This document shows positions 3,318 through 25,968 of a stretch of DNA of 64,000 nucleotides, piece after piece. The first letter of the stretch is position 1. Every line of letters begins with the position of its first letter. The DNA comes from Halocatena salina (GTDB lineage: Archaea; Halobacteriota; Halobacteria; Halobacteriales; Haloarculaceae). The notes beneath the pieces were generated by a model. The model searched no databases. It was not told where the DNA came from and saw only the letters and a program-made list of their open reading frames with translations. The stretch lies in assembly GCF_023115355.1 (NCBI RefSeq), contig NZ_CP096021.1:186001-250000 (forward strand). Direction: 5' to 3'. Both the position numbers and the translations under genes were made by a program.

Positions 3318-5891
3318 TCAGTTGAGCAGCGGTTCCTCGCGAACCGTTGCGTCATAGCAGTCACCCTCATAGAGGATCTCGAGGTCCGTTCCAGGCTCTG
3401 CGTACTCCGGTGGGAGATACGTGTAGATGACGCAGGCCTCGACTGTATAGCCGTATTCGGCGCTGTGGATGTAGCTAATCGTTTCATCACCATCGAGCAC
3501 TGGACGGTGGGGGAGAACAGTAGCGTCCTCGTCGTCGAGGGTCAGACAGGCGACCTTGTGGTCGATGTTATCGTCCTCGGCTGCGGCCACAACCGCGTCC
3601 TTCCCGATGAAGTCGGTCTCAAGATCGACTGCCCAGCTGAGGTTCGTCTCATAGGGGTTGTGTTCGGTGTGCAGGTCCTCACCCCACAGTCGGAAGCCCT
3701 TCTCGATGCGCAGCGCATTTAGTGCGCCGTTGCCGTACGGTCGAATGTCGAACTCTTCGCCGGCATCCATGAGGTGTTCCCAGAGTCGTTCGCCGTACTC
3801 GGAGGGTGTGTACAGCTCCCAGCCGAGTTCGCCAGCATAGGACACCCGAAGCGCGGTGACAGGCACGTTCTTAATGAAGAACTGCTGGCTCGTGAAAAAC
3901 GGGAAGGAGTCATCGGAGAGGTCCACGTCGGTCACCTTCGACAGCACGTCGCGGGCGTGTGGACCGGTACAGACCATCGCTGCTAGACTGGAGGTGATGT
4001 CATTGACGATAACGTCGTCCGGAGACTGTTCGCGGACCCAGGCGACGTGGTTGTTTCCGACCTCACGACCGGTTGTCAAGAGTAGATAGCGATCATCGTC
4101 AACGCGGGTCACGGTGATATCCGCACGGACGCCGCCAGCCTCGTTACATATGAGCGTGTACCGGACATCTCCAACGTCGAGGTCCATGTCGTTCGTACAG
4201 AGCCGTTGGATGAACCCTCCGGCGTTCGCCCCGACGACCTCCATTTTGTTGAAGGAAGTCATGTCGTGGAGGCCGACCTTGTTGCGGACGTGGAGCGCCT
4301 CGGCGCCTTCGATGGGAGACCAATACTTGCTCTCCCACCCGTCCCGGTCCGGGATCTGGTCGCCATACTCGGCGAGCAGGTCGGCGTTGGATTCGAACCA
4401 ATGGGGTTCTTCCCAGCCGGCCTCGGCCCACAGTTCGGCGTCGAGTTCTTTGTGCGAGTGGTACATCGGGGTCCGGCGGATGTCACGCTGGTGGTCCGTC
4501 CACACCCACTTCGGGTGCATGATGTTGTAGACGATGCGGTACTCCTCGCCGCCGGTATCTCGGGCGAAGTCCCAGCTACCTTCGTGTTCGTCGAACCGGT
4601 TGACGTTGCAGTTCCGAAGGTCGATCGGTCCGTCGGATAGGCGCGGGACACCGTTTTCCATCCACTCGGCGAGCGCTTTCCCGGCACCGCCCGCGTGGGT
4701 GACCCAGATGGCGGCAGCGGTCCAGAGGCCGTCGTACTGCTGAACGGGACCCATCACCGGCAGACCGTTGGGTGACTCCGAAAACATCCCGTTATACTTA
4801 TGTTCGAGTTCCTTCTCCGCCGTGGCAGGCAGCAACTCGTCGCTCGCCTGTCGTGGTGCCTTGTCCGGACGGTCTGGGTGGGTGGCATTGTTCATGTGGT
4901 ACTCGGTAAACTCGTGGACCGAGCCCTGTTCGCTATCCTCTTCGTTGCCGCCAAGTTCCTGTGGATCCGGCACGATCGGCTCATGGTTGTACGAGCCGAT
5001 ACCATAGGAGTCACCGTGTGTCCGGAAGTACATCGCGTTGTCCTGATCGCGGAGGATTGGCCGATCTGGCCCCGCAAGCAAGCGGTCTGTCTTGTCACCG
5101 GAGACGCTCTTGTAGTTCTCGTACAGCGGGTGGTCGTTGACTTCGATTCGGTTGTCGGCGAGTTCCTCGAGCGGCTCGGTCATCGTATACTGATGCTCGA
5201 CAGGGGTCACCGGTAGATGGACGTCGAGTTTCTCACCGAGTTGGCGCGCCCAGATGTTCGTTGCGATGACGACGTCGTTGCATTCGACGGTCCCGTTCTC
5301 GGTGACGACCGCTTGTACCTGCCCGCCCTCAATATCGACATCGTGCGTCCGAGTGTGCGGAATGAACTTCACACCACGGTCCATTGCCTCACGAGCGAGC
5401 GCGGCACAGGCGACGACACCCGATACCTGTCCGTCGGTCGGCGAGTAGTACCCACCCTGGATTACGTCAGTATCGACATGTGGCAGTTTCTCTCCGACTT
5501 TTTCGGGCGAGAGGATCTCTGGATCCGGAATGCCCCAAGACTTAGCCCACTCGACGCGGCGTTGGAGATACTCCATACGTTCGTCGCTCCGTGCAACCTC
5601 GATGCCACCGACCTCGTTGTAGGCTTGGGTGCCGTCCGAATCTTCGAGAGCTGAATACAGTTGACGGCTGTAGCTGGCGAACTTCGAGAGGATCTTCGAC
5701 TCCGAGGTCTGGAACATGATACCTGGCGCGTGGCTGGAGGACCCACCAGTGGTTGGAAGCGGTCCCTGGTCGATGACAACCACGTCGTCTCGCCCGAGTT
5801 CGGTGAGCTGGTACGCTACATTGCATCCAACGATACCAGCACCAACGATAACGGTATCTGCCTGGGCTGGCAGGCTATCGTCTGCGTTCAT
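3318..5891 (-). CDS. Dimethylglycine/sarcosine dehydrogenase-like flavoprotein with GcvT domain
   Basis: This 857-residue protein has the full two-part architecture of the dimethylglycine dehydrogenase family. Residues about 10-400 are a D-amino-acid-oxidase-type FAD domain: Rossmann motif VIVGAGIVGCNVAY, then GGSSSHAPGIMF with the histidine used for covalent flavin attachment in this family. Residues about 430-850 are a GcvT-like folate-binding domain (for example LHDMTSFNKMEVVGANAG and SYAGELGWELY). The expected reaction is oxidative N-demethylation of a glycine derivative with transfer of the carbon to tetrahydrofolate. It is a paralogue of the partial protein at the left edge; having both suggests successive demethylation steps or two substrates. 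It is transcribed toward folD. Substrate assignment is inference. Confidence 0.92.
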   Translation of the reverse strand: MNADDSLPAQADTVIVGAGIVGCNVAYQLTELGRDDVVVIDQGPLPTTGGSSSHAPGIMFQTSESKILSKFASYSRQLYSALEDSDGTQAYNEVGGIEVARSDERMEYLQRRVEWAKSWGIPDPEILSPEKVGEKLPHVDTDVIQGGYYSPTDGQVSGVVACAALAREAMDRGVKFIPHTRTHDVDIEGGQVQAVVTENGTVECNDVVIATNIWARQLGEKLDVHLPVTPVEHQYTMTEPLEELADNRIEVNDHPLYENYKSVSGDKTDRLLAGPDRPILRDQDNAMYFRTHGDSYGIGSYNHEPIVPDPQELGGNEEDSEQGSVHEFTEYHMNNATHPDRPDKAPRQASDELLPATAEKELEHKYNGMFSESPNGLPVMGPVQQYDGLWTAAAIWVTHAGGAGKALAEWMENGVPRLSDGPIDLRNCNVNRFDEHEGSWDFARDTGGEEYRIVYNIMHPKWVWTDHQRDIRRTPMYHSHKELDAELWAEAGWEEPHWFESNADLLAEYGDQIPDRDGWESKYWSPIEGAEALHVRNKVGLHDMTSFNKMEVVGANAGGFIQRLCTNDMDLDVGDVRYTLICNEAGGVRADITVTRVDDDRYLLLTTGREVGNNHVAWVREQSPDDVIVNDITSSLAAMVCTGPHARDVLSKVTDVDLSDDSFPFFTSQQFFIKNVPVTALRVSYAGELGWELYTPSEYGERLWEHLMDAGEEFDIRPYGNGALNALRIEKGFRLWGEDLHTEHNPYETNLSWAVDLETDFIGKDAVVAAAEDDNIDHKVACLTLDDEDATVLPHRPVLDGDETISYIHSAEYGYTVEACVIYTYLPPEYAEPGTDLEILYEGDCYDATVREEPLLN

Positions 5892-7094: not shown

Positions 7095-7832
7095 CTACCA
7101 CTGTGAGAGCGCCTCCATATTACGCTCCGAGACAGTCTCCAACAGGCTCACCAGCGCGTCGCTCGCAGCGTCGAGGAGTTCCTCACCGAGGGCAGCGCTC
7201 GCCTCCCGTGGATCGCCGACGACGCCATTCTCGGTGAATTCGGCCGACTCGAACGCTAGGTTGACTCCGTGCTCCCAATCTCCCCACTGGTCGCCCCCTT
7301 TGGCCGCTGCGTCGTCGAGGCGATGCTCGTGGACGGTTCCCGGGGTCGCGTGCTGGAGCAACGAGGTTTCTAGCGGCCCACCGTGACCCATGCGAGACGA
7401 ATGCTCACCGACTGCCTCGAACCACGTGAAGGGAACGGCGTACGCGTCGTCGTTTCGAGTAATCGTCGCTGCGACCTCCCGGAGGGAAGCGATGTTACCA
7501 CCGTGACCGTTCACCAGAACGATACGATCGAAGCCGTGGAACGCAAGACTCCCAACGATATCACGGACGTACGCCCTGAAGGTCGATTCGGAAGTCCAAA
7601 GCGTCCCCGAAAACTGCCGGTGTTCTTCAGCAACACCTACGGGCACCGCGGGGGACACGATGATAGGGCCGTCGAATCGTTCCGCGGCCGACTCTGCGAC
7701 CGTCTCCGCATTGAGGGTATCCGTCCCTAGCGGAGCGTGTGGGCCATGCTGCTCCGTACTGCCGACCGGTACCATCGCGAGGGCAGTCTCTACGTCGTCT
7801 ACATCAGTCCAGGATACGCTCTCGAGGTGCAT
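7095..7832 (-). CDS. Creatininase-family amidohydrolase
   Basis: This 245-residue protein has the creatininase metal-site pattern: PVGSTEQHGPHAPLGTDT (Glu, His, Asp ligands), then VNGHGGN and EHSSRMGHGGPLETS further on. The family hydrolyses cyclic or linear amides with Zn or Mn; members include creatinine amidohydrolase, MftE-like peptidases and FAPy deformylases. I chose the ATG at 7830-7832 (MHLESVSW), because the longer frame adds 29 residues unlike the family. Creatinine breakdown yields sarcosine, which would suit the nearby sarcosine-type dehydrogenases, but no creatinase is present in the window, so this link is weak. The 295 bp between this gene and the GlcG-like gene show no gene I can support. 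Confidence 0.85.
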   Translation of the reverse strand: MHLESVSWTDVDDVETALAMVPVGSTEQHGPHAPLGTDTLNAETVAESAAERFDGPIIVSPAVPVGVAEEHRQFSGTLWTSESTFRAYVRDIVGSLAFHGFDRIVLVNGHGGNIASLREVAATITRNDDAYAVPFTWFEAVGEHSSRMGHGGPLETSLLQHATPGTVHEHRLDDAAAKGGDQWGDWEHGVNLAFESAEFTENGVVGDPREASAALGEELLDAASDALVSLLETVSERNMEALSQW

Positions 7833-8006
7833 ACACCCGCCTCTGTTCGGGGATATGCATAAATCGCTTTCTTCCTGCAGACGTACAATGCTCGGCATGT
7901 GAGTGATACAGTGTGGCAATCGAAACCATTACACACGTCCGACTGGTGTCGTCTCGTTGATATCTTTCCAGTTCCGACGTCACGGGGATCGTCCAGTGAT
8001 ATCCAC

Positions 8007-10081: not shown

Positions 10082-10518
10082 TTTACGTACGTACCTCCAT
10101 GGAGTCGGCAGTGCTCGATTCCAGTTGCGTCTTCTGACAGGGAGAGCGAGGGTAAAAACTTGTGTGTGGCTCACTCGAAGGGGATACCATTGGAGGAGTA
10201 CATTGTGGATCGCGGCGAAGGCTGTGAGTCAGCTATCGGCTGATTCGAACGAACAGTAGTGGAAGAATCGGTGTCTGAAGAGCATGGTTCGGTATTTCAG
10301 CAGACAACACTACGCTTCGATAAGTGACTGCTCTCTCTGCCATAAACAGCGACGTGCGAATGCTCAATCATATTCCTCACGCGAGAGGAACATCCTCCAC
10401 TCACTCGAATCTAGTACTTTGGGTACTAGTCGGGAGTCCAACCCTCAACCAATATAAAGAGGTTCTATATTCCTCAGTTATGATTATGCACACAACTCAG
10501 TAATTGTGATTGAGTGTC
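10082..10518. other. Intergenic, 437 bp, with a probable promoter for the downstream regulator-like gene
   Basis: A TATA-like stretch (AATATAAAG, near 10450) lies about 60 bp before the ATG at 10519. It is preceded by the repeat-like sequence GTACTTTGGGTACTAGT near 10412-10428. I see no gene in the rest. Confidence 0.45.
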
Positions 10519-11745
10519 ATGGGAGCCACCACCTCGTTTCAGAAACTTACCCGGCTGATTCAGCAGTATGAATCAGACGGTGGATGCGTCAAACGTGTCG
10601 AAGCGGAGGCTACCGAGATGCAGACCGAGGCCGGGATGAACGTCACACTCGACGTTCCTGTGTCCCTGTGTTCGGTCGACGAATCGGAAACCACGACGGC
10701 GCCGACAGCAGCGACGATTACCGAGGATGGTGGTCTGCAGGTCGAATTCTCGTCCTCGGTCCTTCCGACATTAGACGACTACATCTCCGGAGACACGACG
10801 GTCAACACGGAGGCCGTTCGGATAGCTGATGACGGAACCGTCGTCACGACGTTCGCAGTTGTCTTCGGGACGGAGATGGAAGCGGGGCACGCCGACGCAG
10901 GATCCACGGATTCAGACTCGCAGGCACGTACGGTGGATAGAACCGACCAGGAGAACAGAACAACGGATAGTGCGTCGTACGAATCGACTCCCACTTCGGA
11001 GACTAGTGACAATGTGGCAGCCAAATCGAACGAAGTCGATCATCACGATCACGATCTCATCGCCGCTGGAACGGAAGACTCAGAGAACGACCAGACGGAA
11101 ATCGAGCGCAAACTCAAGGCTGCCCGAAACGAGAATCTCCAGCCGTACGACGACACGGAGTATCTCCAGTGTCTGTACGATTCCTTCGACACGTTCACCG
11201 AGATGACCGAGAACATCGAGATGGATGTCGCCTCGGAGACGGTGCGGCGATACATGACCGAAGCCGGAGTCCACAAACCGTCATCATACAATATTATTGA
11301 TGAGACTGATGAGGATGACGAAGAAGCGACCAACGTCGCATCAACGGATAGCCACGGTGGCTCAGACAAAACCGACGCTCAAACAGCCGCTAAGGGCGTA
11401 AATGACGATAATGGAACTGCAGGAGAATCGACAGCTGGAGAGGAATCCGACGTGGAGCCAGAGGACCCGATCGAGAGCGTCTTCAATAAACCGCTTGTCG
11501 CTGATGGCATCGGTCTGCCGGATGACATCGAAATCGAGGAGCTGGTGGACGCAATAGAGTCATCAATGACGGTACACCAGATGCAGCGCCAACTTGGACT
11601 CAGCCGAGAGCGGACGCAGAACGTACTAAGTGAACTGAACCTCCTCGATCTCGTCGTACGACGGATTGCACATGACCCAGACCGGGAAGTCTCACGCGTA
11701 GAAATCGCCGACCGGATTCGAAGTAGCGCGAGTAGCGCCTGCTGA
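10519..11745 (+). CDS. Acidic haloarchaeal protein with helix-turn-helix-like segments, putative regulator
   Basis: I do not recognise a named family. The 408-residue product (ATG at 10519; a TTG nine bases upstream is possible) has a folded N-terminal region of about 120 residues containing a beta-rich stretch. A long Asp/Glu/Ser/Thr linker follows. Next is a middle segment (YLQCLYDSFDTFTEMTENI, then ASETVRRYMTEAGVHKPSSY) that looks like an HTH recognition helix region. A second acidic linker leads to a C-terminal segment, TVHQMQRQLGLSRERTQNVL followed by LNLLDLVVRR, that again resembles a helix-turn-helix. Two putative DNA-binding units joined by disordered acidic linkers suggest a transcriptional regulator, possibly of the adjacent Rieske genes. 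No transmembrane segment is visible. Function is inference. Confidence 0.7.
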   Translation: MGATTSFQKLTRLIQQYESDGGCVKRVEAEATEMQTEAGMNVTLDVPVSLCSVDESETTTAPTAATITEDGGLQVEFSSSVLPTLDDYISGDTTVNTEAVRIADDGTVVTTFAVVFGTEMEAGHADAGSTDSDSQARTVDRTDQENRTTDSASYESTPTSETSDNVAAKSNEVDHHDHDLIAAGTEDSENDQTEIERKLKAARNENLQPYDDTEYLQCLYDSFDTFTEMTENIEMDVASETVRRYMTEAGVHKPSSYNIIDETDEDDEEATNVASTDSHGGSDKTDAQTAAKGVNDDNGTAGESTAGEESDVEPEDPIESVFNKPLVADGIGLPDDIEIEELVDAIESSMTVHQMQRQLGLSRERTQNVLSELNLLDLVVRRIAHDPDREVSRVEIADRIRSSASSAC

Positions 11746-12055
11746 CTGTGGTCAGCCCCTGTAACCGCTTCTTCACAGCGATATCGATGTGAACTTCTTT
11801 TAGTAGTACCCAATGGGGTTGTGTGCTCGCGCTGGGAAATCGGCTGGAAGAATGGTTTTCAGCCCCATGTGAGCCAGCGTGGTCACGAAATTTCTCTTGA
11901 CCACCCACAGCACGCCATCGTACTCACTTCTCTCGGATTCGTGTCCACGCGAGCTATCGCGGTTCAGCCGCTTACACGACTGAATCTTCACCGGTTTATA
12001 TTGATGTTCAGTATCACGGGTCAACTGTTTTTTATAACTGGTACCTAGGTAGTTT
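11746..12055. promoter_or_regulatory. Intergenic, 310 bp, promoter region of the first Rieske gene
   Basis: No gene is seen here. A TATA-like box (TTTATAAC, about 12030-12037) lies about 20-25 bp before the ATG at 12056, which is the spacing of a leaderless or nearly leaderless haloarchaeal transcript. The upstream part contains the end of the regulator-like gene and unremarkable sequence. Confidence 0.5.
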
Positions 12056-13189
12056 ATGACTCAGTGGGACGATTCCAAAGCGCAAGCAGTGAGTTCGGAC
12101 ATCACTGACGAATCAAACGCGTTGCCAGCGCGGTACTTCACCGGCCAGGACATCTTCGAGATGGAGAAAGAGACGGTGTTCGGTCAGTACTGGGTGTACG
12201 CCGGACACGCCAACTGCATCAAAGAGGCTGGCGAATACTTCACTCGGACTATCGGTGAGCGACAACTGATAATCGTTCGTGGTCACGATGGTAACATCAA
12301 AGCCTTCGACAACGTCTGTGCCCATCGCGGGTCGAAGATGGTCACGGACACACCAATGACCGACTCTGGCAACGCACGCCGAATCAAGTGCCCGTACCAC
12401 CTCTGGACCTACGATCTGGAGGGAGATCTCAAGAGTACGCCCAAGAGTTTCGAGGAGGCCAGCTTAAACCCAGACCTCGAGGACGAGGAGGTCCAGGAGT
12501 TCGATAGCAAGGAGAACGCCCTGAACGATGTGCACGTAGACAGCATCGGGCCGCTGATCTTCGTCAATCTGAGTGCCGATCCGATGTCACTCGACGAGCA
12601 GGCCGGCGTGATGAAAGACCGACTCGAGGCACTGCCACTCGGTGAGTACGAACACGCCAGTCGCATCGTCTCGGAGGTCGAGTGTAACTGGAAGGTCTTC
12701 AGCAGCAACTACTCCGAATGTGACCACTGTCAGGCCAACCACCAAGACTGGATCAAAGGAATCTCACTCAACGAGTCCGAACTCGAGGTCAACGACTACC
12801 ACTGGGTCCTTCACTACACCCACGACGAAGATGTCGACGATGAACTGCGTATCCACGACGAGCACGAAGCCCAGTTCCATTACTTCTGGCCGAACTTCAC
12901 GGTCAACATGTACGGAACCGCCGACGGCTACGGCACCTACATCATCGACCCGATCGATACCAACCGCTTCCAGCTCATTGCGGACTACTACTTCGAAGAT
13001 CCCGAGCTCTCGGAGGAAGAAGAGGCGTTCATCCGGACGAGCCGCCAACTCCAAGAAGAAGACTTTGAACTGGTCGAGCGACAGTGGGAAGGGCTCAAAA
13101 CCGGCGCACTCTCACAGGCCCAACTCGGGCCGAACGAGCACACGGTCCACAGGTTCCACCAACTCGCACAGCAAGCATACAACTCGTAA
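12056..13189 (+). CDS. Rieske-type non-haem iron oxygenase alpha subunit (glycine betaine / choline monooxygenase-like)
   Basis: This 377-residue protein has an intact Rieske domain with [2Fe-2S] ligands Cys88, His90, Cys112 and His115 (CAHRG and CPYHLW boxes). Its catalytic domain has probable mononuclear iron ligands His224 and His229 (SECDHCQANH), with Asp336 in EEDFELVERQWEGL as the likely third. Length and layout match GbcA/choline monooxygenase-type alpha subunits that oxidatively demethylate or hydroxylate quaternary ammonium compounds. The substrate is inferred from the neighbouring dimethylglycine dehydrogenase-like genes, not proven. A dedicated reductase (GbcB-like) is not in the window. 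It appears monocistronic, with its own TATA box. A near-identical but Rieske-less paralogue lies 800 bp downstream. Confidence 0.88.
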   Translation: MTQWDDSKAQAVSSDITDESNALPARYFTGQDIFEMEKETVFGQYWVYAGHANCIKEAGEYFTRTIGERQLIIVRGHDGNIKAFDNVCAHRGSKMVTDTPMTDSGNARRIKCPYHLWTYDLEGDLKSTPKSFEEASLNPDLEDEEVQEFDSKENALNDVHVDSIGPLIFVNLSADPMSLDEQAGVMKDRLEALPLGEYEHASRIVSEVECNWKVFSSNYSECDHCQANHQDWIKGISLNESELEVNDYHWVLHYTHDEDVDDELRIHDEHEAQFHYFWPNFTVNMYGTADGYGTYIIDPIDTNRFQLIADYYFEDPELSEEEEAFIRTSRQLQEEDFELVERQWEGLKTGALSQAQLGPNEHTVHRFHQLAQQAYNS

Positions 13190-13277: not shown

Positions 13278-13637
13278 ATGAGTTCACAAGATCAAGAGCC
13301 GTACGTTGCTGCCTGCCCGAACTGTGACGTGACACGACAGACCGACGACCCAAACGAAGTCATCAACTTCTACCGGCGACATTACCGGGTCACCGGTCAC
13401 GACATCGAAATCGAGCACGCGGAGCCGGACCTCGACAACGCGGTCACGGCTAACGACCTCAAGGACGTTATCAGGGAACTTGAAGGCCAACACCGAAACG
13501 GCGTTCCAATGGGTGTTATCGCAGCGGTGATGAAAGAGCGCGGTCTGTCGGTGAAACAAACGCTGGACGAGATTCACGAACTACGAATGGGAGGCGGACT
13601 GTACGAGCCACAGGACGACCATCTAGCTGCATTCTGA
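13278..13637 (+). CDS. Small protein with N-terminal CxxC and MCM-type winged-helix-like C-terminus
   Basis: This 119-residue acidic protein starts at the ATG following CACCACC. The N-terminal half has a single AACPNCD (CxxC) motif, then FYRRHYRVTGHDIEIEH. The C-terminal half resembles the winged helix at the end of haloarchaeal MCM helicases: an IRELEGQH helix, then GVPMGVIAAVMKERGLS, then the closing GGGLYEPQDDHL, close to the usual GEVYEPxxDHLR ending. It may therefore be a DNA-binding regulator rather than an enzyme. It lies between the two Rieske paralogues on the same strand, 88 bp after the first. The MCM resemblance is from memory of the family and should be tested by profile search. 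Confidence 0.7.
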   Translation: MSSQDQEPYVAACPNCDVTRQTDDPNEVINFYRRHYRVTGHDIEIEHAEPDLDNAVTANDLKDVIRELEGQHRNGVPMGVIAAVMKERGLSVKQTLDEIHELRMGGGLYEPQDDHLAAF

Positions 13638-13984
13638 AGAGATACTGCCACTCCCTCAACGGTGTCAGTGACCAACCGCGAGTAGCATGCCCGTCACTCG
13701 ATCATCGCTGTTTTTCGAGTCTTCGCGCAACAACGTCTCGTCTACGTCGACCGATTCGATGGCGCGGACCAACCCTTCTTCCGGTACTTGCAGTCTTTGA
13801 GTTTCATGTTCGGGAGTCGCCGCTGATGGCCCAACTCCGGTTCGGCCTCATCGTGCGCTTCGACCCGCTCTGCTGAGACAGCGCCGAAATTAGTCGTTAG
13901 CGTGTGTGGGCCGATGGAGATCTTATAAAGATACTCTATATCACTGGTTAATTCTTTTTAGCAATTCGCTCAATCACCGAATGT
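13638..13984. other. Intergenic, 347 bp, no gene recognised; promoter of the second Rieske gene at its end
   Basis: No conserved frame is visible. AT-rich stretches at about 13920-13966 (CTTATAAAG, TCTATATC, TTTTTAG) precede the ATG at 13985 and are the likely promoter. The first 250 bp may be decayed coding sequence but I could not identify it. Confidence 0.4.
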
Positions 13985-14995
13985 ATGACTCAGTGGGATG
14001 CGTCCCAGACGAAAGCAGTGAGCTCAGATATCACGGAGAAATCGAATGCATTGCCAGCGCGGTACTTCACCGGCCAGGACATCTTCGAGATGGAGAAAGA
14101 GACGGTGTTCGGTCAGTACTGGGTGTACGCCGGACACGCCAACTGCATCAAAGAGGCTGGCGAATACTTCACTCGGACTATCGGTGGTCACGACCTGATC
14201 GTCGTCCGAGACGATGATGGGGGGATTAAGGCATTCAATAACTTCTCCCCGAATGATAACTCGGAGCTCGTGTCCGAAACGACGATGACCGACACAGAGA
14301 ATCTTGACACCACTGAACTCACTGAACTAGACGACGTACACGTAGACAGCATCGGGCCGCTGATCTTCGTCAATCTGAGTGCCGATCCGATGTCACTCGA
14401 TGAGCAGGCCGGCGTGATGAAAGACCGACTCAAGGCACTGCCACTCGGTGAGTACGAACACGCCAGTCGCATCGTCTCGGAGGTCGAGTGTAACTGGAAG
14501 GTCTTCAGCAGCAACTACTCCGAGTGTGACCACTGTCAGGCCAACCACCAAGACTGGATCAAAGGAATCTCGCTCAACGAGTCCGAACTCGAGGTCAACG
14601 ACTACCATTGGGTCCTTCACTACACCCACGCACAGGACGTCGACGATGAACTGCGTATCCACGACGAGCACGAAGCCCAGTTCCATTACTTCTGGCCGAA
14701 CTTCACGGTCAACATGTACGGAACCGCCGATGGCTACGGCACCTACATCATTGACCCGATCGATACCAACCGCTTCCAGCTCATTGCGGACTACTACTTC
14801 GAAGATCCCGAGCTCTCGGAGGAAGAAGAGGCGTTCATCCGGACGAGCCGCCAACTCCAAGAAGAGGACTTCGAACTGGTCGAGCGACAGTGGGAAGGGC
14901 TCAAAACCGGCGCACTCTCACAGGCCCAACTCGGACCGAACGAGCACACGGTCCACAGGTTCCACCAACTCGCACAGCAAGCGTACAACTCGTAA
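13985..14995 (+). CDS. Rieske oxygenase paralogue that has lost the Rieske [2Fe-2S] ligands
   Basis: This 336-residue open frame is nearly identical to the oxygenase at 12056-13189 in its first about 67 residues and in its whole catalytic domain. It keeps the probable iron ligands (equivalents His183, His188, Asp295). Between residues about 68 and 117 the Rieske core is rewritten: Cys88 becomes Ser, His90 becomes Asn, and the second Cys-His pair lies in a 41-residue deletion. It therefore cannot bind the cluster. The frame is intact and has its own AT-rich promoter. It could be a non-catalytic or partner subunit: Rieske oxygenases are trimers in which electrons cross from one subunit's Rieske cluster to the next subunit's iron. 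It could also be a recently disabled duplicate. The flanking identity suggests recent duplication or gene conversion. Confidence 0.85.
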   Translation: MTQWDASQTKAVSSDITEKSNALPARYFTGQDIFEMEKETVFGQYWVYAGHANCIKEAGEYFTRTIGGHDLIVVRDDDGGIKAFNNFSPNDNSELVSETTMTDTENLDTTELTELDDVHVDSIGPLIFVNLSADPMSLDEQAGVMKDRLKALPLGEYEHASRIVSEVECNWKVFSSNYSECDHCQANHQDWIKGISLNESELEVNDYHWVLHYTHAQDVDDELRIHDEHEAQFHYFWPNFTVNMYGTADGYGTYIIDPIDTNRFQLIADYYFEDPELSEEEEAFIRTSRQLQEEDFELVERQWEGLKTGALSQAQLGPNEHTVHRFHQLAQQAYNS

Positions 14996-15755: not shown

Positions 15756-16919
15756 ATGTCCATGAATGCAGTTGTCTACAAAGGCAAACAAGAGGTAGCT
15801 GTGGAAGAAGTCGAAACGCCCCAGATCGAACATCCAAACGATGTCGTCATCGATATCACGACGACATGTATCTGTGGATCCGATCTGCACATGTACGAGG
15901 GTCGGACGGCCGCGGAGCCAGGAATCGTATTCGGCCACGAGAACATGGGTACCGTAGAGGAGGTCGGCGAGGCCGTCAGCGACCTCGAAATCGGTGACCG
16001 CGTCGTCGCACCGTTCAACGTCGCCTGCGGTTTCTGTGAGAACTGTGAGAACGGATACACGGGCTTCTGTACGAACGTCAATCCCGGGTTTGCCGGTGGT
16101 GCCTACGGATACGTCGCTATGGGCCCATATCAGGGTGGGCAGGCTGAGAAACTCCGCATCCCGTACGCTGATTTCAACGCGCTCAAACTGCCGGACGGGC
16201 GGGAACACGAAGACTCGTTCGCACTGCTCGCGGATATCTTCCCGACAGGCTGGCACGGCACGGAACTCGCCAATCTCGAATCCGGTGACTCGGTCGCTAT
16301 CTACGGCGCTGGTCCGGTCGGTCTGATGGCTGCCTACAGCGCCAAGCTCAAGGGTGCTGCCGAGATTTATGTCGTCGATCGCGTCCCCAGCCGTCTCACA
16401 CTTGCCGAGGAACACTGTGACGCCACCCCGATCAACTTTGAGGAAGGTGACCCGGTTGAGCAGATCAAAGAGATTCACGGCAGCGGTGTCGACAAGGGTG
16501 TCGATGCAGTCGGTTACCAGGCAATCGATCCGGACAAGGAAGCTGACGACGCGTACGACCCTGCCCGCGAAAATCCAGCTGTCGTCATCAATAACCTCAT
16601 TCGGACAGTCCGGCCGACTGGTGAACTCGGCATACCCGGTCTCTACGTCCCTGACGACCCCGGTGCCCCCGACGAGATGGCCGCACAGGGCCGTCTCGGC
16701 ATCGATTTCGGTCTCCTCTTTGAGAAAGGCCAGGCCCTCGGCACTGGCCAATGTAACGTTAAGGAGTACAACCGCAAACTCCGCGATATGATAATCGAAG
16801 GTCGTGCCGACCCGAGTTGGGTTGTCTCCCACCGTGTCGACCTCGAAGACGCGCCCGGGATGTACGAAAAGTTCGACAACCGCGAAGCGGGCGTCACGAA
16901 GGTGCTACTGGAACCTTAA
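15756..16919 (+). CDS. Glutathione-independent, zinc-dependent formaldehyde dehydrogenase
   Basis: This 387-residue medium-chain alcohol dehydrogenase belongs to the Pseudomonas-type formaldehyde dehydrogenase/dismutase branch. Visible marks are the catalytic zinc region TTCICGSDLHMYEGR and GHENMG, the structural zinc cysteines CGFCENCENGYTGFC, the branch-typical NPGFAGGAYGYVAMGPYQGGQAE, the NAD-binding GAGPVGLMAAYSA and the late VKEYNRKLRDMI. It oxidises formaldehyde to formate using a tightly held NAD and needs no thiol cofactor. It fits between formaldehyde-releasing demethylases upstream and the formate dehydrogenase operon downstream. A second ATG two codons in is an alternative start. 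Relatives sometimes accept other aldehydes, so substrate is inferred from family and context. Confidence 0.92.
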   Translation: MSMNAVVYKGKQEVAVEEVETPQIEHPNDVVIDITTTCICGSDLHMYEGRTAAEPGIVFGHENMGTVEEVGEAVSDLEIGDRVVAPFNVACGFCENCENGYTGFCTNVNPGFAGGAYGYVAMGPYQGGQAEKLRIPYADFNALKLPDGREHEDSFALLADIFPTGWHGTELANLESGDSVAIYGAGPVGLMAAYSAKLKGAAEIYVVDRVPSRLTLAEEHCDATPINFEEGDPVEQIKEIHGSGVDKGVDAVGYQAIDPDKEADDAYDPARENPAVVINNLIRTVRPTGELGIPGLYVPDDPGAPDEMAAQGRLGIDFGLLFEKGQALGTGQCNVKEYNRKLRDMIIEGRADPSWVVSHRVDLEDAPGMYEKFDNREAGVTKVLLEP

Positions 16920-18576: not shown

Positions 18577-20076
18577 ATGACTGAACACGTCCTTGAGGCA
18601 TCGCCAGTCCTGCGGGTTGCGGGGCGTAATTCGAGGGATGAGGTGCTGAATGTCGCCACGTCAGCGGCGTCACTCCCTGTCGTAGCAGTCGGGTCAACCG
18701 GGCTCTCTGCTCTCGAGCCGCTCGTACTCGCAACACAGAACAGGCAGACAGCGTTCTATGAGTCGTGCACTCCCCAACGTGCGGCCGATCTTGCTGACAC
18801 GCTCGATAACGGCGAACTCGACATTGAGGATGCCGACGCTGTCATCGAACACGCTTCAACGCCCACCCGTCTCCCAATCCCCGACCGATCACCGCTTGGG
18901 GTCGGCACACGGACCGTGTTGGGTCGGTGTGGTTGGCTTCGACCGACATGCCCGAATGACTACCGGGCATCTGGTGGCTTCGAGACGCTTACCGCGGATG
19001 GCGAGACCGTGGTCGGCGCGGCACGCAGGGTCACTGGACGTGGCTGGGGTGACGCTATGGCAGATACCTCTGTCGGTGACTCGTGGAAGCGCGTTATCGA
19101 TGCAGATGGCGATCCAGCAGTCGTCGTCAACGCTCACGGGACGCCCAGTGACAGACTCTTATTGGAGTCACTCCCGTTCCTTCCGCTCGAAGGGGCGCTC
19201 GCCGCGGCGCAGATCGTCGACGCGAGCGATGTCATCATCTATCTCTCGGAGGCCGACAACCAGGCGCACGAGCGCGTCACTGCGGCCATCGAAAACCTAC
19301 CGCAGACGAACGCGGCGGTGCACGCCGTGACAGGACCGGATGAGTATCGCGCTGCCGAGCCAACGATGGCACTCGAAGCCATCGAGGGAAGCCAGCGGCT
19401 GGAAGCGCGTCTTCGACCACCCCAACCAGATATCGAGGGGATATACGGTCGACCCACGCTCGTTCATACACCACGGACGCTCGCACAGATCGTCCACGCA
19501 ACATCGGGGGCTGCCCCCACGCGCATCGTGACGATCCGCGGTGATGTCCAGCATGAAGCGACGGTCGAACTCCCTGCGGATGGATCGCTCGCAACTGCAC
19601 GCGAGGCCGTCACCGTTGATGGTACATTTAAGTGTGCATGTGTCGGTGGCCAGTTCGGCGGCCTGACACCGGATCTGGATATTGCCCCGACACCGGACGC
19701 GCTCGGTGCTGCCGGTGTCGGAACGGAGGGCGTTATCGATGTGCTCAACGAAGATCAATGTCTCGTCGCCTATATCGGCGAGCAATCGCGGTTTGCACAG
19801 GACGAAAACTGCGGGCGCTGTGTCCCCTGCCGTGAGGGAACGGTGCAACTAACAGATCTCCTCCGTGAGGTGTACGATGGCTCGTTCCGACCAGACGCCA
19901 TCGAAGAACTGCTCCGTGTCATAGAGTCTTCGAGCATTTGCGCATTCGGCCGTGATGCGACGCGACCTGTCGCAACGGGGCTTGACCACTTTGAAGACGA
20001 GTTCGCAGTCCATGCCGGCGGACAGTGTCCAACAGGAACCTGCACCACTGAACTACAACACGAGGTATCCCAATGA
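18577..20076 (+). CDS. NuoF-like (51 kDa-type) subunit of formate dehydrogenase, with degenerate FMN/NADH site
   Basis: The 499-residue product aligns in order with NuoF/HoxF/FdhB subunits. The C-terminal half ends with the SLBB-like region and the N3-type [4Fe-4S] site (CGRCVPCREGT, then ESSSICAFGRDA). A short ferredoxin-like tail (CPTGTC) follows. The FMN and NADH loops are altered: where family members have GRGGAGFPTGxKW this has GRGWGDAMADTSVGDSWKRV, and the usual CNADEGEPG is VNAHGTPSDR. Flavin binding and NADH use are therefore doubtful, and it may serve as an Fe-S electron relay. It is the first gene of a tight operon; its stop overlaps the next start (ATGA). A strong GGAGG precedes its ATG. 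Confidence 0.85.
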   Translation: MTEHVLEASPVLRVAGRNSRDEVLNVATSAASLPVVAVGSTGLSALEPLVLATQNRQTAFYESCTPQRAADLADTLDNGELDIEDADAVIEHASTPTRLPIPDRSPLGVGTRTVLGRCGWLRPTCPNDYRASGGFETLTADGETVVGAARRVTGRGWGDAMADTSVGDSWKRVIDADGDPAVVVNAHGTPSDRLLLESLPFLPLEGALAAAQIVDASDVIIYLSEADNQAHERVTAAIENLPQTNAAVHAVTGPDEYRAAEPTMALEAIEGSQRLEARLRPPQPDIEGIYGRPTLVHTPRTLAQIVHATSGAAPTRIVTIRGDVQHEATVELPADGSLATAREAVTVDGTFKCACVGGQFGGLTPDLDIAPTPDALGAAGVGTEGVIDVLNEDQCLVAYIGEQSRFAQDENCGRCVPCREGTVQLTDLLREVYDGSFRPDAIEELLRVIESSSICAFGRDATRPVATGLDHFEDEFAVHAGGQCPTGTCTTELQHEVSQ

Positions 20077-21011
20077 GCTCCGAATTCACACGTACCGACG
20101 TACCACCACTAACTGAAGCAATACAACCGGGAACGGCGACTGATCCCACAATCGGGAGCACTGACACAGCGACCGTGACCGTTGACGGCCATGAGGTAAC
20201 GCTGGAAGAAGGAGCTACCGTACTTGATGCCGTTACAGCTGTCGATACCAACGAGGATGTTCCAGCCCTCTGTTCATACGACCGAGAGGACAACATCGGT
20301 CCACGAAGTGAGTGTCGCACTTGTATGGTCGAGACGGATGACCACGGTCTTGTCCCGTCGTGTAGCTTCCCCGCTGAGGACGGACTGAACGTCAAAACCG
20401 ATGCTACGGCGGCGACTGAGGCCCGTGACGTCAACCTTGATCTTGTTCTGTCGAACCATAATCTGCGATGTACGACTTGTGGGAAGAATGGTCGCTGTGA
20501 ACTGCAAGACGCTGCCATTGCCACTGACGTTGAGGAACCCCGCTATGGCGTCCTCGATGACCGCGACGCCTACGAACCGATCGACGATTCCTCCTCGTTC
20601 ATCCAGATCGACCGCAACAAGTGTATTCTCTGTAATCGGTGTGTTGAAGCCTGTAACGATGTCCAGGTTGAAGGCGTCCTCCACATGGAAGGCAGCGGTC
20701 AGGACACCCGTATCGGCTTCCAGAACGGGGCGGAAACAATGGCGGACTCGACGTGTGTCTCCTGTGGCCATTGCGTGACCGTCTGTCCGACTGGCTCACT
20801 GGTCGAGAAAGGGATTGAAGATGCGGCGACACTCCCAATCCCCGGATTCACCCAGAAGAACAGTATCGGACAATCGTTCGAATCGACAGATGAGAATAAG
20901 GAACCGATGACGCCAATGAAACAAGATGACCGGTCAGAAACGAATGGGCCGACGAGCACAAATACCGCTGGCGAGTCGGAGTCAGAGTCGGAGTTGGAGG
21001 ACTGGCCATGA
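20073..21011 (+). CDS. NuoG-N-terminal/FdhA-type iron-sulfur subunit of formate dehydrogenase
   Basis: This 312-residue electron-transfer protein has a plant-type [2Fe-2S] domain (ALCSYDREDN, SECRTCMVE, VPSCSFP), then the His/Cys-ligated [4Fe-4S] box (CTTCGKNGRCELQ). Two ferredoxin-type [4Fe-4S] motifs follow (CILCNRCVEACNDVQ and CVSCGHCVTVCPTGSL). This is the layout found before the molybdopterin domain in soluble formate dehydrogenases and NuoG, here encoded as a separate gene. The acidic C-terminal tail of about 60 residues is a haloarchaeal extension. It overlaps both neighbours by 4 bp, so the three subunits are co-translated and probably form one complex in the cytoplasm. Confidence 0.92.
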   Translation: MSSEFTRTDVPPLTEAIQPGTATDPTIGSTDTATVTVDGHEVTLEEGATVLDAVTAVDTNEDVPALCSYDREDNIGPRSECRTCMVETDDHGLVPSCSFPAEDGLNVKTDATAATEARDVNLDLVLSNHNLRCTTCGKNGRCELQDAAIATDVEEPRYGVLDDRDAYEPIDDSSSFIQIDRNKCILCNRCVEACNDVQVEGVLHMEGSGQDTRIGFQNGAETMADSTCVSCGHCVTVCPTGSLVEKGIEDAATLPIPGFTQKNSIGQSFESTDENKEPMTPMKQDDRSETNGPTSTNTAGESESESELEDWP

Positions 21012-23278
21012 GTGACGAGACGAATGGCGTCGCCAGCTACATGCAGCAGGCAAAAGAGCAGGCACTCAAGAACGTCGAACACATCGCCGAGGATGTTGCC
21101 GCCGGCACCATGCCAGAGGGCAAACTGTTCGACATCGCGCGGTCAATCAGCGACAAACGTCTTGAGGAACTGACCGTCGACACGACCACCTGTGGGTACT
21201 GTGCAGTCGGCTGTCGGTTTGACGTGTACTCAGATGGGAACGAAGTCCTCGCCACACGACCCGCTAACCCTGAAAAGACTCCCGTGAACGGTATCTCAAC
21301 CTGCGTGAAGGGAAAGTTTAGTTACGGCTTTGTGAACGCCAATGATCGCCTTACGAAACCGCTTGTCCGCAATGAGAACGGCGAGTTCCGAACGGCGTCC
21401 TGGGACGAAGCCTACGAGCGTGTCGTGGAGGGATTCGAGGACATTACGGACAACTATGGTGGTGAGGCGCTGTCAGTCATCGCTTCCTCGAAAGCGACGA
21501 ACGAGGAGAACTACCTCATGGGGAAGTTCGCTCGGCAGGTTCTGGGGACGAACACTGTCGACAACTGTAATCGGCTCTGTCACTCATCGACGGTCACAGG
21601 ACTCGCAAAGACGTTCGGTTACGGAGCAGCGTCTGTGAGCATCGAGGATCTTGAAACGACCGATTGCTATCTTATCACGGGATCAAATACGACCGAGGCA
21701 CACCCTGTCATCGGTACTCGCATCAAGCAAAACGTCCGTGACGGCAGCGACCTCATCGTGTTCGACCCGCGTGAAGTCCCGATCGCCGAATACGCCACGC
21801 AATACACGCAGGTTAATCCTGGGTATGACGCCGTCTGGATCAACGGTCTCATTCGGCATATCATCGAGAATGACCTCCACGACGAGGCGTTCATTGAGGA
21901 ACGGGCAACGGGGTTCGAAGACATGAAAGAGGCGGTGCAGGAGTTTACGCCCGAACGTGTCGAAGAGATTACAGGCGCCCCCGCAGCGGAGATCAAGGCT
22001 GCCGCAGAAACGATCGCGACTGCCGACACATGCGTGTTCGGCTGGGCGCTCGGCATCACCGAACACTCCCACGGCACGGAGAATGTCACAGCATTGGCGA
22101 ACCTTGCCGCGATCACGGGTAACGTCGGCAAACGAGGGGCGGGCGTCTCTCCGTTCCGGGGCCAGAACAACGTGCAAGGTGGCGGCGGTGACATGGGACC
22201 GCTTCCCGACAACCTTCCTGGCTACCAGAAAATCGAGAATGACGATGTCCGCGAGACGTTCGAAGACGCCTGGAATTGTGATATCTCGGCCGATCGCGGT
22301 TACTACACGACGGAGATGTTCCACGCGGCAGATGCCGGAGAGCTCCGCGGAATGTACTGCATCGGTGAGAACCCCGCACTCTCCGAGCCCGGAAAAGGAC
22401 ATGGCGAGACAGTCTTAGAGAACATAGACTTCCTCGTCGTACAGGATCTTTTCTTGAATGAAACCGCAAAGTACGCGGATGTTGTCCTACCGGCGTGTTC
22501 GTTCCTCGAGAAAGAAGGAACGTTCACGAACACGGACCGGACCGTCCAGAAGGTGAACCCAGTCATCGAGTCGCGTGGCGACTCGAAGCCGGACTGGGTG
22601 ATCTTACAGGACCTCGCGAATCGACTGGGTCGCGAATGGGACTACGAAAACACCGCCGAAATCATGGAGGAGATACGCCAGCTGACTCCGATCTATGGCG
22701 GCATCACCCAGGAACGCGTCGAGCGTGAGGGGGGTATCCAGTGGCCGTGTTTCAATCTCGACCACCCCGGTACGCAACGCCTCTATACGGAGGCGTTCAA
22801 CACCGAAGATGGGAACGCTCACCTCAAGCCGATTGGCTACAGTGAGCCGATGGAGACACCAGATGACACCTATCCGCTGACGCTCACAACCGGTCGCGTC
22901 CTCTATCAGTACCACACAGGCACGATGACGCACCGAGATGAGGGTATCATGACGTACAACTCACAGAACTTCGTCGAGATCAACCCAGAGACCGCGGCGA
23001 ACTACGACATTGCGGATGGGGATCCGGTCTGCATCGAGTCGCGCCGCGGCGAAATTACTGTACCAGCACAGGTGACCGATCGCGTCGGGACGGACACCGT
23101 ATTCGTGCCGATGCATTTCGCGGAAAACGCAGTGAACGAGTTAACAGATGCTGAACGTCTCGATCCAGAGGCTAAGACGCCGGAGTTCAAGGTATCAGCA
23201 GTCTGCATCAGGCCCGTAGAGAGCAGTGCAGAAGAGTCTCACAAAACGAATATTGAGCCAGCTTCGGGGGATGATTGA
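21008..23278 (+). CDS. Formate dehydrogenase catalytic subunit (molybdopterin oxidoreductase)
   Basis: This 756-residue enzyme has the N-terminal [4Fe-4S] cluster Cys62, Cys65, Cys69 and Cys99 (TTCGYCAVGCRFD, then STCVKGK). The bis-pterin-guanine-dinucleotide domains follow, with catalytic Cys191-His192 in NCNRLCHSSTV, the pair that marks formate dehydrogenases. Other family blocks are LANLAAITGNVGKRGAGVSPFRGQNNVQG and, near the C-terminus, GRVLYQYHTGTMTHR. It oxidises formate to CO2. About 60 residues precede the cluster, an extension without a visible export signal, so the enzyme is probably cytoplasmic. Electrons pass to the Fe-S subunits encoded just upstream. Mo versus W cannot be told. 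It is followed one base later by a DUF1641 gene. Confidence 0.94.
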   Translation: MSDETNGVASYMQQAKEQALKNVEHIAEDVAAGTMPEGKLFDIARSISDKRLEELTVDTTTCGYCAVGCRFDVYSDGNEVLATRPANPEKTPVNGISTCVKGKFSYGFVNANDRLTKPLVRNENGEFRTASWDEAYERVVEGFEDITDNYGGEALSVIASSKATNEENYLMGKFARQVLGTNTVDNCNRLCHSSTVTGLAKTFGYGAASVSIEDLETTDCYLITGSNTTEAHPVIGTRIKQNVRDGSDLIVFDPREVPIAEYATQYTQVNPGYDAVWINGLIRHIIENDLHDEAFIEERATGFEDMKEAVQEFTPERVEEITGAPAAEIKAAAETIATADTCVFGWALGITEHSHGTENVTALANLAAITGNVGKRGAGVSPFRGQNNVQGGGGDMGPLPDNLPGYQKIENDDVRETFEDAWNCDISADRGYYTTEMFHAADAGELRGMYCIGENPALSEPGKGHGETVLENIDFLVVQDLFLNETAKYADVVLPACSFLEKEGTFTNTDRTVQKVNPVIESRGDSKPDWVILQDLANRLGREWDYENTAEIMEEIRQLTPIYGGITQERVEREGGIQWPCFNLDHPGTQRLYTEAFNTEDGNAHLKPIGYSEPMETPDDTYPLTLTTGRVLYQYHTGTMTHRDEGIMTYNSQNFVEINPETAANYDIADGDPVCIESRRGEITVPAQVTDRVGTDTVFVPMHFAENAVNELTDAERLDPEAKTPEFKVSAVCIRPVESSAEESHKTNIEPASGDD

Positions 23279-23279
23279 G

Positions 23280-24014
23280 ATGGCAGATCCTACAACGACC
23301 GTTCCAGAGGCGGCGATGAACCGATCGTCAGACCGGCCCAAAGAAGGAGAACAAGCGCTTCGTGCAGTCATCGAAGAATACGGCGACGACTACGCGGCCG
23401 CTGCCGAGTACACGGACGAACTAGAGAATATTCTCGAGACGGCACTACTCGTGCTCGCGAGCGCCGACGATGAGGAAGTCGAATATTTGACAGATTCAAT
23501 GATAACGCTCGTTGAAGCAGCGGACGCCGTCTCAACCGATGGCACCGTGGCACTCGCGGAAGGGATCGGCGAGAACACCGGTGAACTTTCGGAACTCCTC
23601 GACGCGGTTTGTCGCCTCCAGCACCACGGTCATGTCAATATGTTCGTTCGTATTGCAGAGACGCTCTCGGCGTCGCTCGACGAGGAAGAAGCAGAAGAAC
23701 TTGCTGTCGCGCTCGGTGACAACGGATCGGAGGCCGCAGCGGCTATCGACTCCATGATGGAACTCCAGCGTGAGGGCCATCTCGATAATCTCGTGGAGTT
23801 GTCGAGGACACTGTCTGCCCTCGAGGTCGACGAATCGACAGTGACCGGCCTGAACAGGGTGCTGAACGCCGTCGGGGAGGCCGAACAGGAACCGAAACCG
23901 GTTGGCCTGTTCGGGCTCATTCGCTCACTCGGCCGGCGCGATGTGCGCACAGGTCTCGGCTACATTGTGACCGTGCTGAAGGCGCAGGGACGCCGACTCA
24001 GGAAAGACGTCTGA
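23280..24014 (+). CDS. DUF1641 family protein of formate dehydrogenase operon
   Basis: The 244-residue, mostly helical protein matches the DUF1641 pattern, with repeated helices of the type LAEGIGENTGELSELLDAVCRLQ and the closing GLFGLIRSLGRRDVRTGLGYIV. DUF1641 proteins are often encoded beside NAD-type formate dehydrogenases; their biochemical role is not established, with assembly or regulation proposed. I chose the ATG at 23280, one base after the preceding stop; an upstream in-frame start inside the formate dehydrogenase gene is unlikely. No metal motif or membrane segment is visible. It sits between two molybdopterin catalytic subunits, so it could serve either. Confidence 0.85.
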   Translation: MADPTTTVPEAAMNRSSDRPKEGEQALRAVIEEYGDDYAAAAEYTDELENILETALLVLASADDEEVEYLTDSMITLVEAADAVSTDGTVALAEGIGENTGELSELLDAVCRLQHHGHVNMFVRIAETLSASLDEEEAEELAVALGDNGSEAAAAIDSMMELQREGHLDNLVELSRTLSALEVDESTVTGLNRVLNAVGEAEQEPKPVGLFGLIRSLGRRDVRTGLGYIVTVLKAQGRRLRKDV

Positions 24015-24021
24015 AAAAGAG

Positions 24022-25968
24022 ATGACTGACCAACCCGATCGATCAATCAACGAGACCGAAACGGTGTGCCCACTCTGTGCGGTGGGTTGTCGCCTTACAC
24101 ACGGCGATGGCGACCGTGCGGAGGGCTGTGAGGGACCAGCAAATCCGAACGGCCGCCTCTGTGCGAAGGGAGCGACAGCGTTCGAAGCTGTTCGTGATGA
24201 CGACCGACTCACGACGCCACTCGTGCGCCGCGACGATGGCCTCGTCCCGACCGATTGGTCGACAGCACTTGATCGGGTGGTCAACGATTTCGAGACCGTG
24301 TGCGACGCCAGCGGATCGGATGCACTCGCGTTCTTCGGCGCACCACGTTGTACAAACGAAGAGAATTACCTCCTTCAGAAACTCGCCCGATCACTCGGAA
24401 CGAACAACGTTGATAACCGTGCACGGCTCTGTCACGCCTCAGCGGCGACCGCACTCGAAAGCCGCTTTGGCTGGCCGGCTTCGACAAATTGCCTCACCGA
24501 TCTGACGGACGCCGACCTTCTTCTTGTCGTCGGTGCGAACCCAGCTATTCAACAACCCGTAGCGTTCGACGCGTTCGTCCGCCCGGCCGTTGCCGATGGG
24601 ACGACACTCGTTGATATCGATCCTCGGCAGAACGAGACGACACGCATTGCCGATCAGCATATCACTCCTCGGCCTGGCACCGACGCGCTGTGTTTCCACC
24701 TTGTCTGTGCGCTTCTTGTCGAACACGAATATGTCGACACGTCATTTGTCAATAATCGTACGAGTGACTACGAGACGTTCAAGGCAGCTCTCGCTAACAT
24801 CGATATCGACGAAGGCCAGCAGACAACTGGTGTTGACAGTGAGACGCTTATTGCTCTTGTCGATCGCATCGGGACGGCTGACCGGATTACTGTTATCGGG
24901 GGAACGGGCATCGAAGACGGTGGTGATGAAACCACGACGACGGACGCGCTGCTTAACATGCTGTTGCTCACTGGCAATGTCGGACGGCCGGGAACGGGAT
25001 TCATGCTCCTTCGTGGACTAAACAACGAACAGGGGGCTGTTGACATGGGCTGTCGGCCCGACATACTTCCTGGTCACCAGTCGGTTACGGACGATGCCGC
25101 ACGGCGCCGGGTTGCGGACGTATGGAATACTGAACCTCCGTCTCACCCTGGACGTAACGAGTATGAGGCGCTCGATGCGTTCGGTACTACTGTTCATGGA
25201 GCGCTCGTGGTTGGTGAGAATCCGGCGATCGAAAAACGCGATGCCGACTGGGTGGCACACCAGCTAGATGCGCTGGAGACACTCGTCCTTCTCGATGTAT
25301 TCCCAAGCGAGACGATGCAACACGCCGACGTTGTCCTCCCAGCAGCGGTCGGTCTGGAGAAGGCAGGAACAATAACGAATCTCGATCGACGGGTGCAGCG
25401 GCTATCGGTCACTGCGTCACCGCCTGGCATGGCCCGGACAGACTATGCAATTTTGGCGGCACTGGGCGAACAGCTCGTCGGAGACGGATTCGCACCCGTC
25501 GATCCGGAGACGGCCTTTGACGAACTCCAGGCGGTGAATCCGTTGTACGATGGGTTCTCTGATACGGTTGGCGAGTGCTGGCCGGTGGGCAACGATGATG
25601 GTCTTTACACCGACGGGTTCGCGACCCACGATAGCAAGGCACCATTTGTACCCCTCGATCCGGCGGTTACGTCACCAGCTGACGACGAACTCGTACTCAT
25701 CGTTGGTAGTCGAGCCGGTGGCTTCGACACCGAGTACACGGTTGACAATCGGGTACGGCTGAACGTGAATGATGCGACGATGCGAGAAATCGAAGAGGGC
25801 GACCATGTCGTTGTCGCCACTGGTGACATCACGGTTACCACAACGGCCGCTGTCGGTGATGCTGTCCGCGAAGGAACAGCGTACCTCCACGCGGACGTGG
25901 CCGATCCACTCGTTCGGTCAGCGTCGGGATCTCCCACCGTCACCGTTACACTCGCTAAGGATGTTTAA
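24022..25968 (+). CDS. Second formate dehydrogenase-like molybdopterin catalytic subunit
   Basis: This 648-residue paralogue of the gene at 21008 has cluster cysteines Cys16, Cys19, Cys23 and Cys47 (VCPLCAVGCRLT, then LCAKG) and catalytic Cys137-His138 in NRARLCHASAATA. It also has GNVGRPGTGFMLLRGLNNEQGAVDMG, which parallels the paralogue's RGQNNVQGGGGDMG block. It is about 110 residues shorter, mostly because it lacks the long N-terminal extension and has a shorter C-terminal domain. The operon position, 7 bp after DUF1641, implies co-expression. It may be an alternative catalytic subunit sharing the upstream Fe-S proteins, or it may act on another substrate. The conserved Cys-His pair favours formate. 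Confidence 0.88.
   Translation: MTDQPDRSINETETVCPLCAVGCRLTHGDGDRAEGCEGPANPNGRLCAKGATAFEAVRDDDRLTTPLVRRDDGLVPTDWSTALDRVVNDFETVCDASGSDALAFFGAPRCTNEENYLLQKLARSLGTNNVDNRARLCHASAATALESRFGWPASTNCLTDLTDADLLLVVGANPAIQQPVAFDAFVRPAVADGTTLVDIDPRQNETTRIADQHITPRPGTDALCFHLVCALLVEHEYVDTSFVNNRTSDYETFKAALANIDIDEGQQTTGVDSETLIALVDRIGTADRITVIGGTGIEDGGDETTTTDALLNMLLLTGNVGRPGTGFMLLRGLNNEQGAVDMGCRPDILPGHQSVTDDAARRRVADVWNTEPPSHPGRNEYEALDAFGTTVHGALVVGENPAIEKRDADWVAHQLDALETLVLLDVFPSETMQHADVVLPAAVGLEKAGTITNLDRRVQRLSVTASPPGMARTDYAILAALGEQLVGDGFAPVDPETAFDELQAVNPLYDGFSDTVGECWPVGNDDGLYTDGFATHDSKAPFVPLDPAVTSPADDELVLIVGSRAGGFDTEYTVDNRVRLNVNDATMREIEEGDHVVVATGDITVTTTAAVGDAVREGTAYLHADVADPLVRSASGSPTVTVTLAKDV

Follow-up and report, generated by a model that had tools for sequence, protein, structure and literature searches.

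The locus raises the question of whether a Rieske oxygenase that has lost its [2Fe-2S] cluster is a working enzyme subunit or a duplicate in decay. The window, a stretch of 64,000 nucleotides from Halocatena salina, carries two tandem oxygenase genes, and both reading frames were confirmed at the coordinates used here. The partner oxygenase, F (12056–13189, + strand, 377 aa), is a group V, GbcA/CntA-like protein with intact Rieske [2Fe-2S] and mononuclear-iron domains, and S (13985–14995, + strand, 336 aa) is a Rieske-less paralogue with its catalytic domain, 2-His-1-Asp triad and bridging Glu intact. In Pfam, the Rieske model matches F in full (65 bits), and the Ring_hydroxyl_A domain of F is complete too; S matches the catalytic domain PF00848 with 68 bits, and its Rieske match is of half length and below threshold.

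Metal sites and promoter element of the two genes

The cluster-binding segment of F (12317–12400, + strand) holds C88, H90, C112 and H115, and all four ligands (CxH...CxxH) are present in every F copy and absent from every S copy. Compared with F, S has Ser for C88 and Asn for H90, while C112 and H115 fall inside a 41-residue deletion; what remains of the Rieske domain in S (codons 67–117, 14183–14335, + strand) has not been homogenised with F. The catalytic site is retained as N-Y178-S-E180-C181-D-H183-C184-QAN-H188 together with D295. The first of these segments, NYSECDHCQANH (14513–14548, + strand), contains Tyr178, the bridging Glu180, the Cys181/Cys184 pair and the iron ligands His183 and His188, and EEDFELVE (14861–14884, + strand) supplies the third ligand, Asp295, so that the 2-His-1-carboxylate site (H183, H188, D295) is met in S, as it also is in the F of the window. 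The best solved-structure match for both proteins is CntA (6y8j; E = 1e-40 for F and 7e-30 for S), placing the pair close to CntA/YeaW and GbcA, and S has equivalents of CntA Tyr203, Glu205, Cys206/Cys209 and the 2-His-1-Asp triad. In CntA, Tyr203 makes a π-cation contact with the quaternary ammonium and Glu205 is the bridging residue; Tyr178 and Glu180 of S align with these two positions, and the group V marks of S, Tyr178 and the Cys-X-X-Cys pair, are invariant in 12 aligned copies. The iron ligands and bridging Glu of S are likewise invariant. CntA differs in being a homotrimer of one polypeptide that carries both centres, whereas here there is a second, Rieske-less subunit gene.

A shared promoter element, TATCACNGGTNAANNNTTTTT, lies 44 bp before F (12012–12032, + strand) and 46 bp before S (13939–13959, + strand). 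Allowing up to one mismatch, it occurs exactly twice in the 4.0-Mb genome, before F and S alone, and a reversed control pattern has no match in the same 4.0 Mb. A looser form (the core, with up to two mismatches) precedes 18 of the 20 S genes and all 21 F genes, nearly always at −47. The preliminary description, made from sequence alone, had proposed that S keeps the catalytic domain and its probable iron ligands, lacks all four [2Fe-2S] ligands and has its own promoter-like sequence; all of this held, the element being found 5' of F as well as of S.

The order putative regulator, F, HVO_B0008-family gene, S, formaldehyde-dehydrogenase-like gene and cobW is kept in several genera. The HVO_B0008-family protein (13278–13637, + strand, 119 aa) adjoins F in nearly all pair loci and, where the two genes are in tandem, separates F from S. 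An acidic protein of 411 aa (10510–11745, + strand), a relative of which precedes F in most pair loci, has no Pfam or NCBIfam match, and its C terminus looks helix-turn-helix-like by eye; it is a candidate for the regulator that acts on the −47 element. A creatininase-family gene also lies near the pair (7095–7919), with a relative near F at four other loci (L013, L016, L118 and L120).

An old pair homogenised by gene conversion

In a scan with one genome per species, relatives were found at 46 loci. In all, S was present in 20 genomes spanning nine or more haloarchaeal genera. Copies of exactly 336 aa come from Halogranum, Halostagnicola, Halegenticoccus, Haladaptatus, Natronococcus, Natronorubrum, Natronolimnohabitans and one Natrialbaceae MAG; the Natrinema and Haloterrigena copies are damaged by assembly. 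Nineteen of the 20 extracted S genes encode exactly 336 aa and the twentieth is interrupted by an assembly gap; all 20 have Ser at position 88, none contains a stop, and the 41-residue deletion is common to every clean copy. A sample of 394 genomes from the order contains 16 with S, in eight genus codes; in all 16 the contig that carries S also encodes a Rieske-bearing partner. About 50 further genomes have a single intact form alone. A 394-genome sample of the phylum showed no S beyond the haloarchaea. The pair is absent from all six same-genus genomes examined; even so, the presence of S in 20 genomes, always with the partner, rules out a strain-specific oddity, an outcome that the preliminary description had named as one that would refute its reading.

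The DNA of the two genes is a mosaic, which that description overlooked. A run of 136 bp in S (14051–14186, + strand), 5' of the Rieske segment, is identical to F 12122–12257 (no run as long in 5000 permutations). It is followed by about 150 bp at 57% identity and then by a catalytic block of 657 bp (14336–14992, + strand, against F 12530–13186) that is 97% identical in nucleotides and 99% in amino acids, with 15 codon differences, 12 of them synonymous. Both near-identical stretches are gene-conversion tracts. All genomes with an intact pair repeat this pattern: S and its own F are 88–98% identical in the catalytic block and 50–63% in the Rieske segment, with identity falling at the edges of that segment. 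Copies with assembly scars, namely those of Haloterrigena salina (L024, L049, L050) and Natrinema (L014, L016), were excluded from both the block trees and the selection analysis.

In the tree of the Rieske block all S sequences lie on one side of a single branch (bootstrap 100, SH-aLRT 99), and the Rieske loss therefore happened once. On the catalytic-block tree, which covers intact pairs, the label S must change 11 times and in most genomes S groups with the F of its own genome; the data reject monophyly of S (p-AU 3.7e-6, lnL difference 809). Because the catalytic blocks pair by genome while the Rieske segments of S form one clade, gene conversion must homogenise the rest of the genes. S and F are thus old paralogues whose conversion tracts end at the Rieske segment. 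A recent duplication was considered and rejected, as the S Rieske segments are one old clade and the near-identity comes from conversion. No conversion that returns the Rieske segment to S, or removes that of F, was seen to persist, and from this sparing of the segment we infer selection for the difference itself.

At several loci, F and S lie about 12–15 kb apart in inverted orientation, or are scrambled by assembly, with N-runs and duplicated ends (Halostagnicola L010/L013, Natrinema L014/L016 and Haloterrigena salina L024/L049/L050); such scrambling is expected of near-identical repeats. In Haloarcula amylovorans (L015:6001–8575) F is followed directly by the dehydrogenase gene, without the HVO_B0008-family gene or S, and these two may have been deleted by recombination between the F/S direct repeats.

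Selection and reciprocal loss of metal sites

Six genomes (L017, L019, L021, L022, L023 and L115; Natronococcus and one Natrialbaceae MAG) contain a partner with a perfect Rieske domain and no iron site. In each, other residues stand in place of NYSECDHCQANH, a four-residue deletion common to all six is present, EEDFELVE is degenerate and the bridging Glu is absent; these partners form one clade (support 1.000). S then holds the sole iron site of the pair, and no chain has both centres. Five of the six genomes were searched whole and none has another close family copy, one of them having one distant relative at 34% identity. That the two metal centres are divided between two proteins in these genomes is shown at the level of sequence, and we regard it as the decisive observation; the pair there probably works only together, association and activity being inferred. 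One genome of the genus Natronococcus (G339, locus L114) still has an intact partner, and the loss of the iron site is therefore recent relative to the pair. This partner (L114:11573–12706) reads CEGNH in place of CQANH beside the iron ligands, possibly an early step of site loss.

Selection was estimated by pairwise codon maximum likelihood on three or four pairs per group, with the caveats that pairs are few, codon frequencies were pooled, some dS values are near or above 1 and kappa was fixed in one run. The catalytic block of S has a dN/dS of 0.05 in the Natronococcus type and 0.025–0.035 in the others (likelihood-ratio statistics of 182 and 580 against a dN/dS of 1), and the Rieske remnant of S has values of 0.13–0.15 and 0.27–0.37, respectively. 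For F the picture is reversed in the iron-less group: the Rieske block is at 0.024 (0.06–0.07 in the others) and the catalytic block at 0.16, against 0.022–0.025 for intact partners (2ΔlnL 44.4). The former catalytic domain of the iron-less partner is thus relaxed about six-fold and the strongest constraint on any block is that on its Rieske domain, the two blocks of F differing within this group with a 2ΔlnL of 23.1. Constraint therefore tracks the surviving metal site in each protein, albeit on few pairs. The iron-less domain still lies below 1, perhaps as expected of a remaining scaffold.

Structure prediction adds little for S. Its AlphaFold2 model is poor (mean pLDDT 50, shallow alignment) and confident only at residues ~50–140 (80–92, β strands); the β-sandwich base of the Rieske domain may persist without its cluster-binding part. 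A Foldseek search with this model gave a TM of 0.3 and was set aside as evidence. The model of the iron-less partner (pLDDT 69) matches the CntA fold with a TM of ~0.7.

A proposed heteromeric oxygenase, its rivals and its likely substrate

The ligand losses and retentions, the single origin of S, the selection pattern, the shared promoter element and the reciprocal loss are shown by these data. The reading that we favour, with a probability of roughly 0.72, is that S functions as a catalytic subunit in a heteromeric, two-gene group V Rieske oxygenase formed with F; here association, expression, electron path and substrate are inferred. In CntA the distance from cluster to iron is 44 Å within a subunit and 12.2 Å between subunits, and mutants of the bridging Glu are dead (PMC7948474). 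Since electron transfer in the family runs between subunits, a clusterless subunit can still be catalytic beside a cluster-bearing neighbour. By analogy, F and S would assemble as the head-to-tail ring typical of Rieske oxygenases, probably a trimer; the Rieske cluster of F would take up electrons and pass them over the interface, by way of the bridging Glu180, to the mononuclear iron of a neighbouring S; in the genome of the window the cluster of F would also feed the iron of another F. At the S iron, O2 would then be activated and a quaternary amine oxidised; the likeliest reaction is removal of a methyl group from glycine betaine, which would release formaldehyde. On this arithmetic F2S would have two of three interfaces productive, FS2 one and S3 none, and with the Natronococcus proteins any mixed trimer would have exactly one. 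In evolutionary terms, S would have arisen once, when one tandem copy lost the cluster-binding part of its Rieske domain; in most lineages F would have stayed whole while gene conversion kept the catalytic domains alike, and in the Natronococcus lineage F would then have lost its iron site, making the heteromer obligatory, with F as electron relay and S as the site of catalysis.

The simplest rival, which the preliminary description itself offered, is that S is a decaying duplicate that resembles F through gene conversion alone. In its favour, the Rieske segment of S evolves faster (dN/dS 0.13–0.37) than that of F, and conversion between the genes is strong. Against it stand the one fixed length without stops in 20 genomes, the conserved promoter element that S has of its own, and the expectation that random conversion should restore or spread the Rieske segment, which is not seen. 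Moreover, the catalytic domain of the Natronococcus-type F has itself decayed, so conversion cannot explain an S block at 0.05. Decay is all but excluded. Also very unlikely is a catalytic S that works without F and whose iron is reduced directly by a ferredoxin, a reductase or another Rieske protein. Other Rieske-domain proteins do exist in this genome, and NdmC is fed by the Rieske domain of the reductase NdmD (PMC4408171), which shows that proteins other than a sister oxygenase can be the donor. However, all 16 sampled genomes with S also have F, S shares the private promoter element of F and is its close neighbour in most loci, and an F Rieske domain that remains highly conserved after catalysis is lost must serve an acceptor, of which S is the obvious one. 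We give equally little weight to a non-catalytic S, one with a structural or regulatory role that adjusts how many active sites a ring contains. S duplicates the active site of F almost exactly in the window genome (99% of amino acids in the block), and so brings no new specificity, and fewer clusters per ring would alter electron supply; yet its iron ligands, bridging Glu and Cys pair are invariant and in the Natronococcus type they form the sole iron site of the pair.

Among the earlier claims, then, decay after duplication failed, given the conservation and the dN/dS values; relaxed selection with dN/dS near 1, which had been named as a possible refutation, was not found, the catalytic block lying at 0.025–0.05. 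The idea of a mixed oligomer, with association still inferred, is strengthened by the loss of the partner's iron site. The heteromeric reading leaves one matter unsettled, as F alone could suffice in the window genome and catalysis alone does not explain the benefit of S there. S could be kept beside a whole F because it changes the supply of electrons, because it leaves a docking site open for the reductase, or through a neutral ratchet. A specialised S active site is an unlikely reason in this genome, the catalytic block being 99% identical.

The preliminary description knew of no two-gene oxygenase of this type in haloarchaea. This held: no archaeal precedent or earlier description of such a pair was found in the open-access literature searched, although two-chain cases exist elsewhere. 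In the caffeine N7-demethylase of Pseudomonas, NdmC/NdmD/NdmE, NdmC is a non-haem-iron oxygenase without a Rieske centre, the cluster being on another protein (PMC4408171); that system has its Rieske domain on the reductase NdmD, as a fusion, and also needs the GST-like NdmE, whereas the haloarchaeal pair has the Rieske domain on a paralogous oxygenase subunit, is archaeal and has another predicted substrate. The chlorophyllide a oxygenase (CAO) of Micromonas is, like the proposed enzyme, one Rieske oxygenase from two chains; it is active when purified and has been proposed to be a heterodimer or a trimer of dimers (PMC9615114). It is a eukaryotic algal enzyme of another Rieske subfamily. One of its chains reportedly keeps the Rieske centre and the other the iron (Kunugi et al. 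2013), a split of one centre per chain that is unmet in the window, where F has both, and met in the six Natronococcus-type genomes. The haloarchaeal pair thus appears to be a further independent split, archaeal and within group V, with intermediate stages preserved. On a bolder reading, to which we lean only slightly, three living stages lead from homomer to obligate heteromer: a single intact gene; an intact gene with a Rieske-less one, as in the window, where gene conversion homogenises all but the lost domain; and a Rieske-only with an iron-only gene, as in Natronococcus. Inter-subunit electron transfer has so far been inferred from structures and mutants, and here evolution seems to have mixed the subunits; if the reading is true, this is a natural complementation experiment that proves such transfer and documents the complementary degeneration of a redox enzyme. 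The living intermediates bring a long-standing question within direct reach of experiment: whether adaptive division of labour or a neutral ratchet turns a homomeric enzyme into an obligate heteromer. For annotators, the short form should not be labelled a pseudogene.

The best NCBIfam model for both proteins is GbcA (NF058607, equivalog; F 141.6 bits, S 81.3 bits), and the substrate is uncertain because these scores are far below the cut-off of 670 bits. From homology and gene context, we infer that demethylation of glycine betaine is the likeliest reaction, with choline or carnitine possible; the pair is thus a predicted glycine-betaine oxygenase of several haloarchaea. A dedicated reductase gene was not identified, nor was a reductase-Rieske fusion seen among the neighbours examined. 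Conserved near S is a zinc dehydrogenase (15756–16919, + strand), nearest to glutathione-independent formaldehyde dehydrogenases but below the model cut-off. An FAD oxidoreductase fused to a GcvT-type domain (3318–5891, − strand), like dimethylglycine and sarcosine oxidases, is the probable next demethylation step. A formate-dehydrogenase cluster (18577–25968, + strand) encodes NuoF-like, Fe-S, Fdh-alpha, DUF1641 and second molybdopterin proteins. FolD is also in the window and a BCCT transporter lies immediately upstream of it; at L119 an IclR regulator, an Fe-alcohol dehydrogenase, a betaine-aldehyde-dehydrogenase-like gene and a BCCT transporter lie between S and F. Elsewhere in the window, 28232–32392 encodes a LacZ-type β-galactosidase of 1386 aa with an inserted LamG/concanavalin-like domain.
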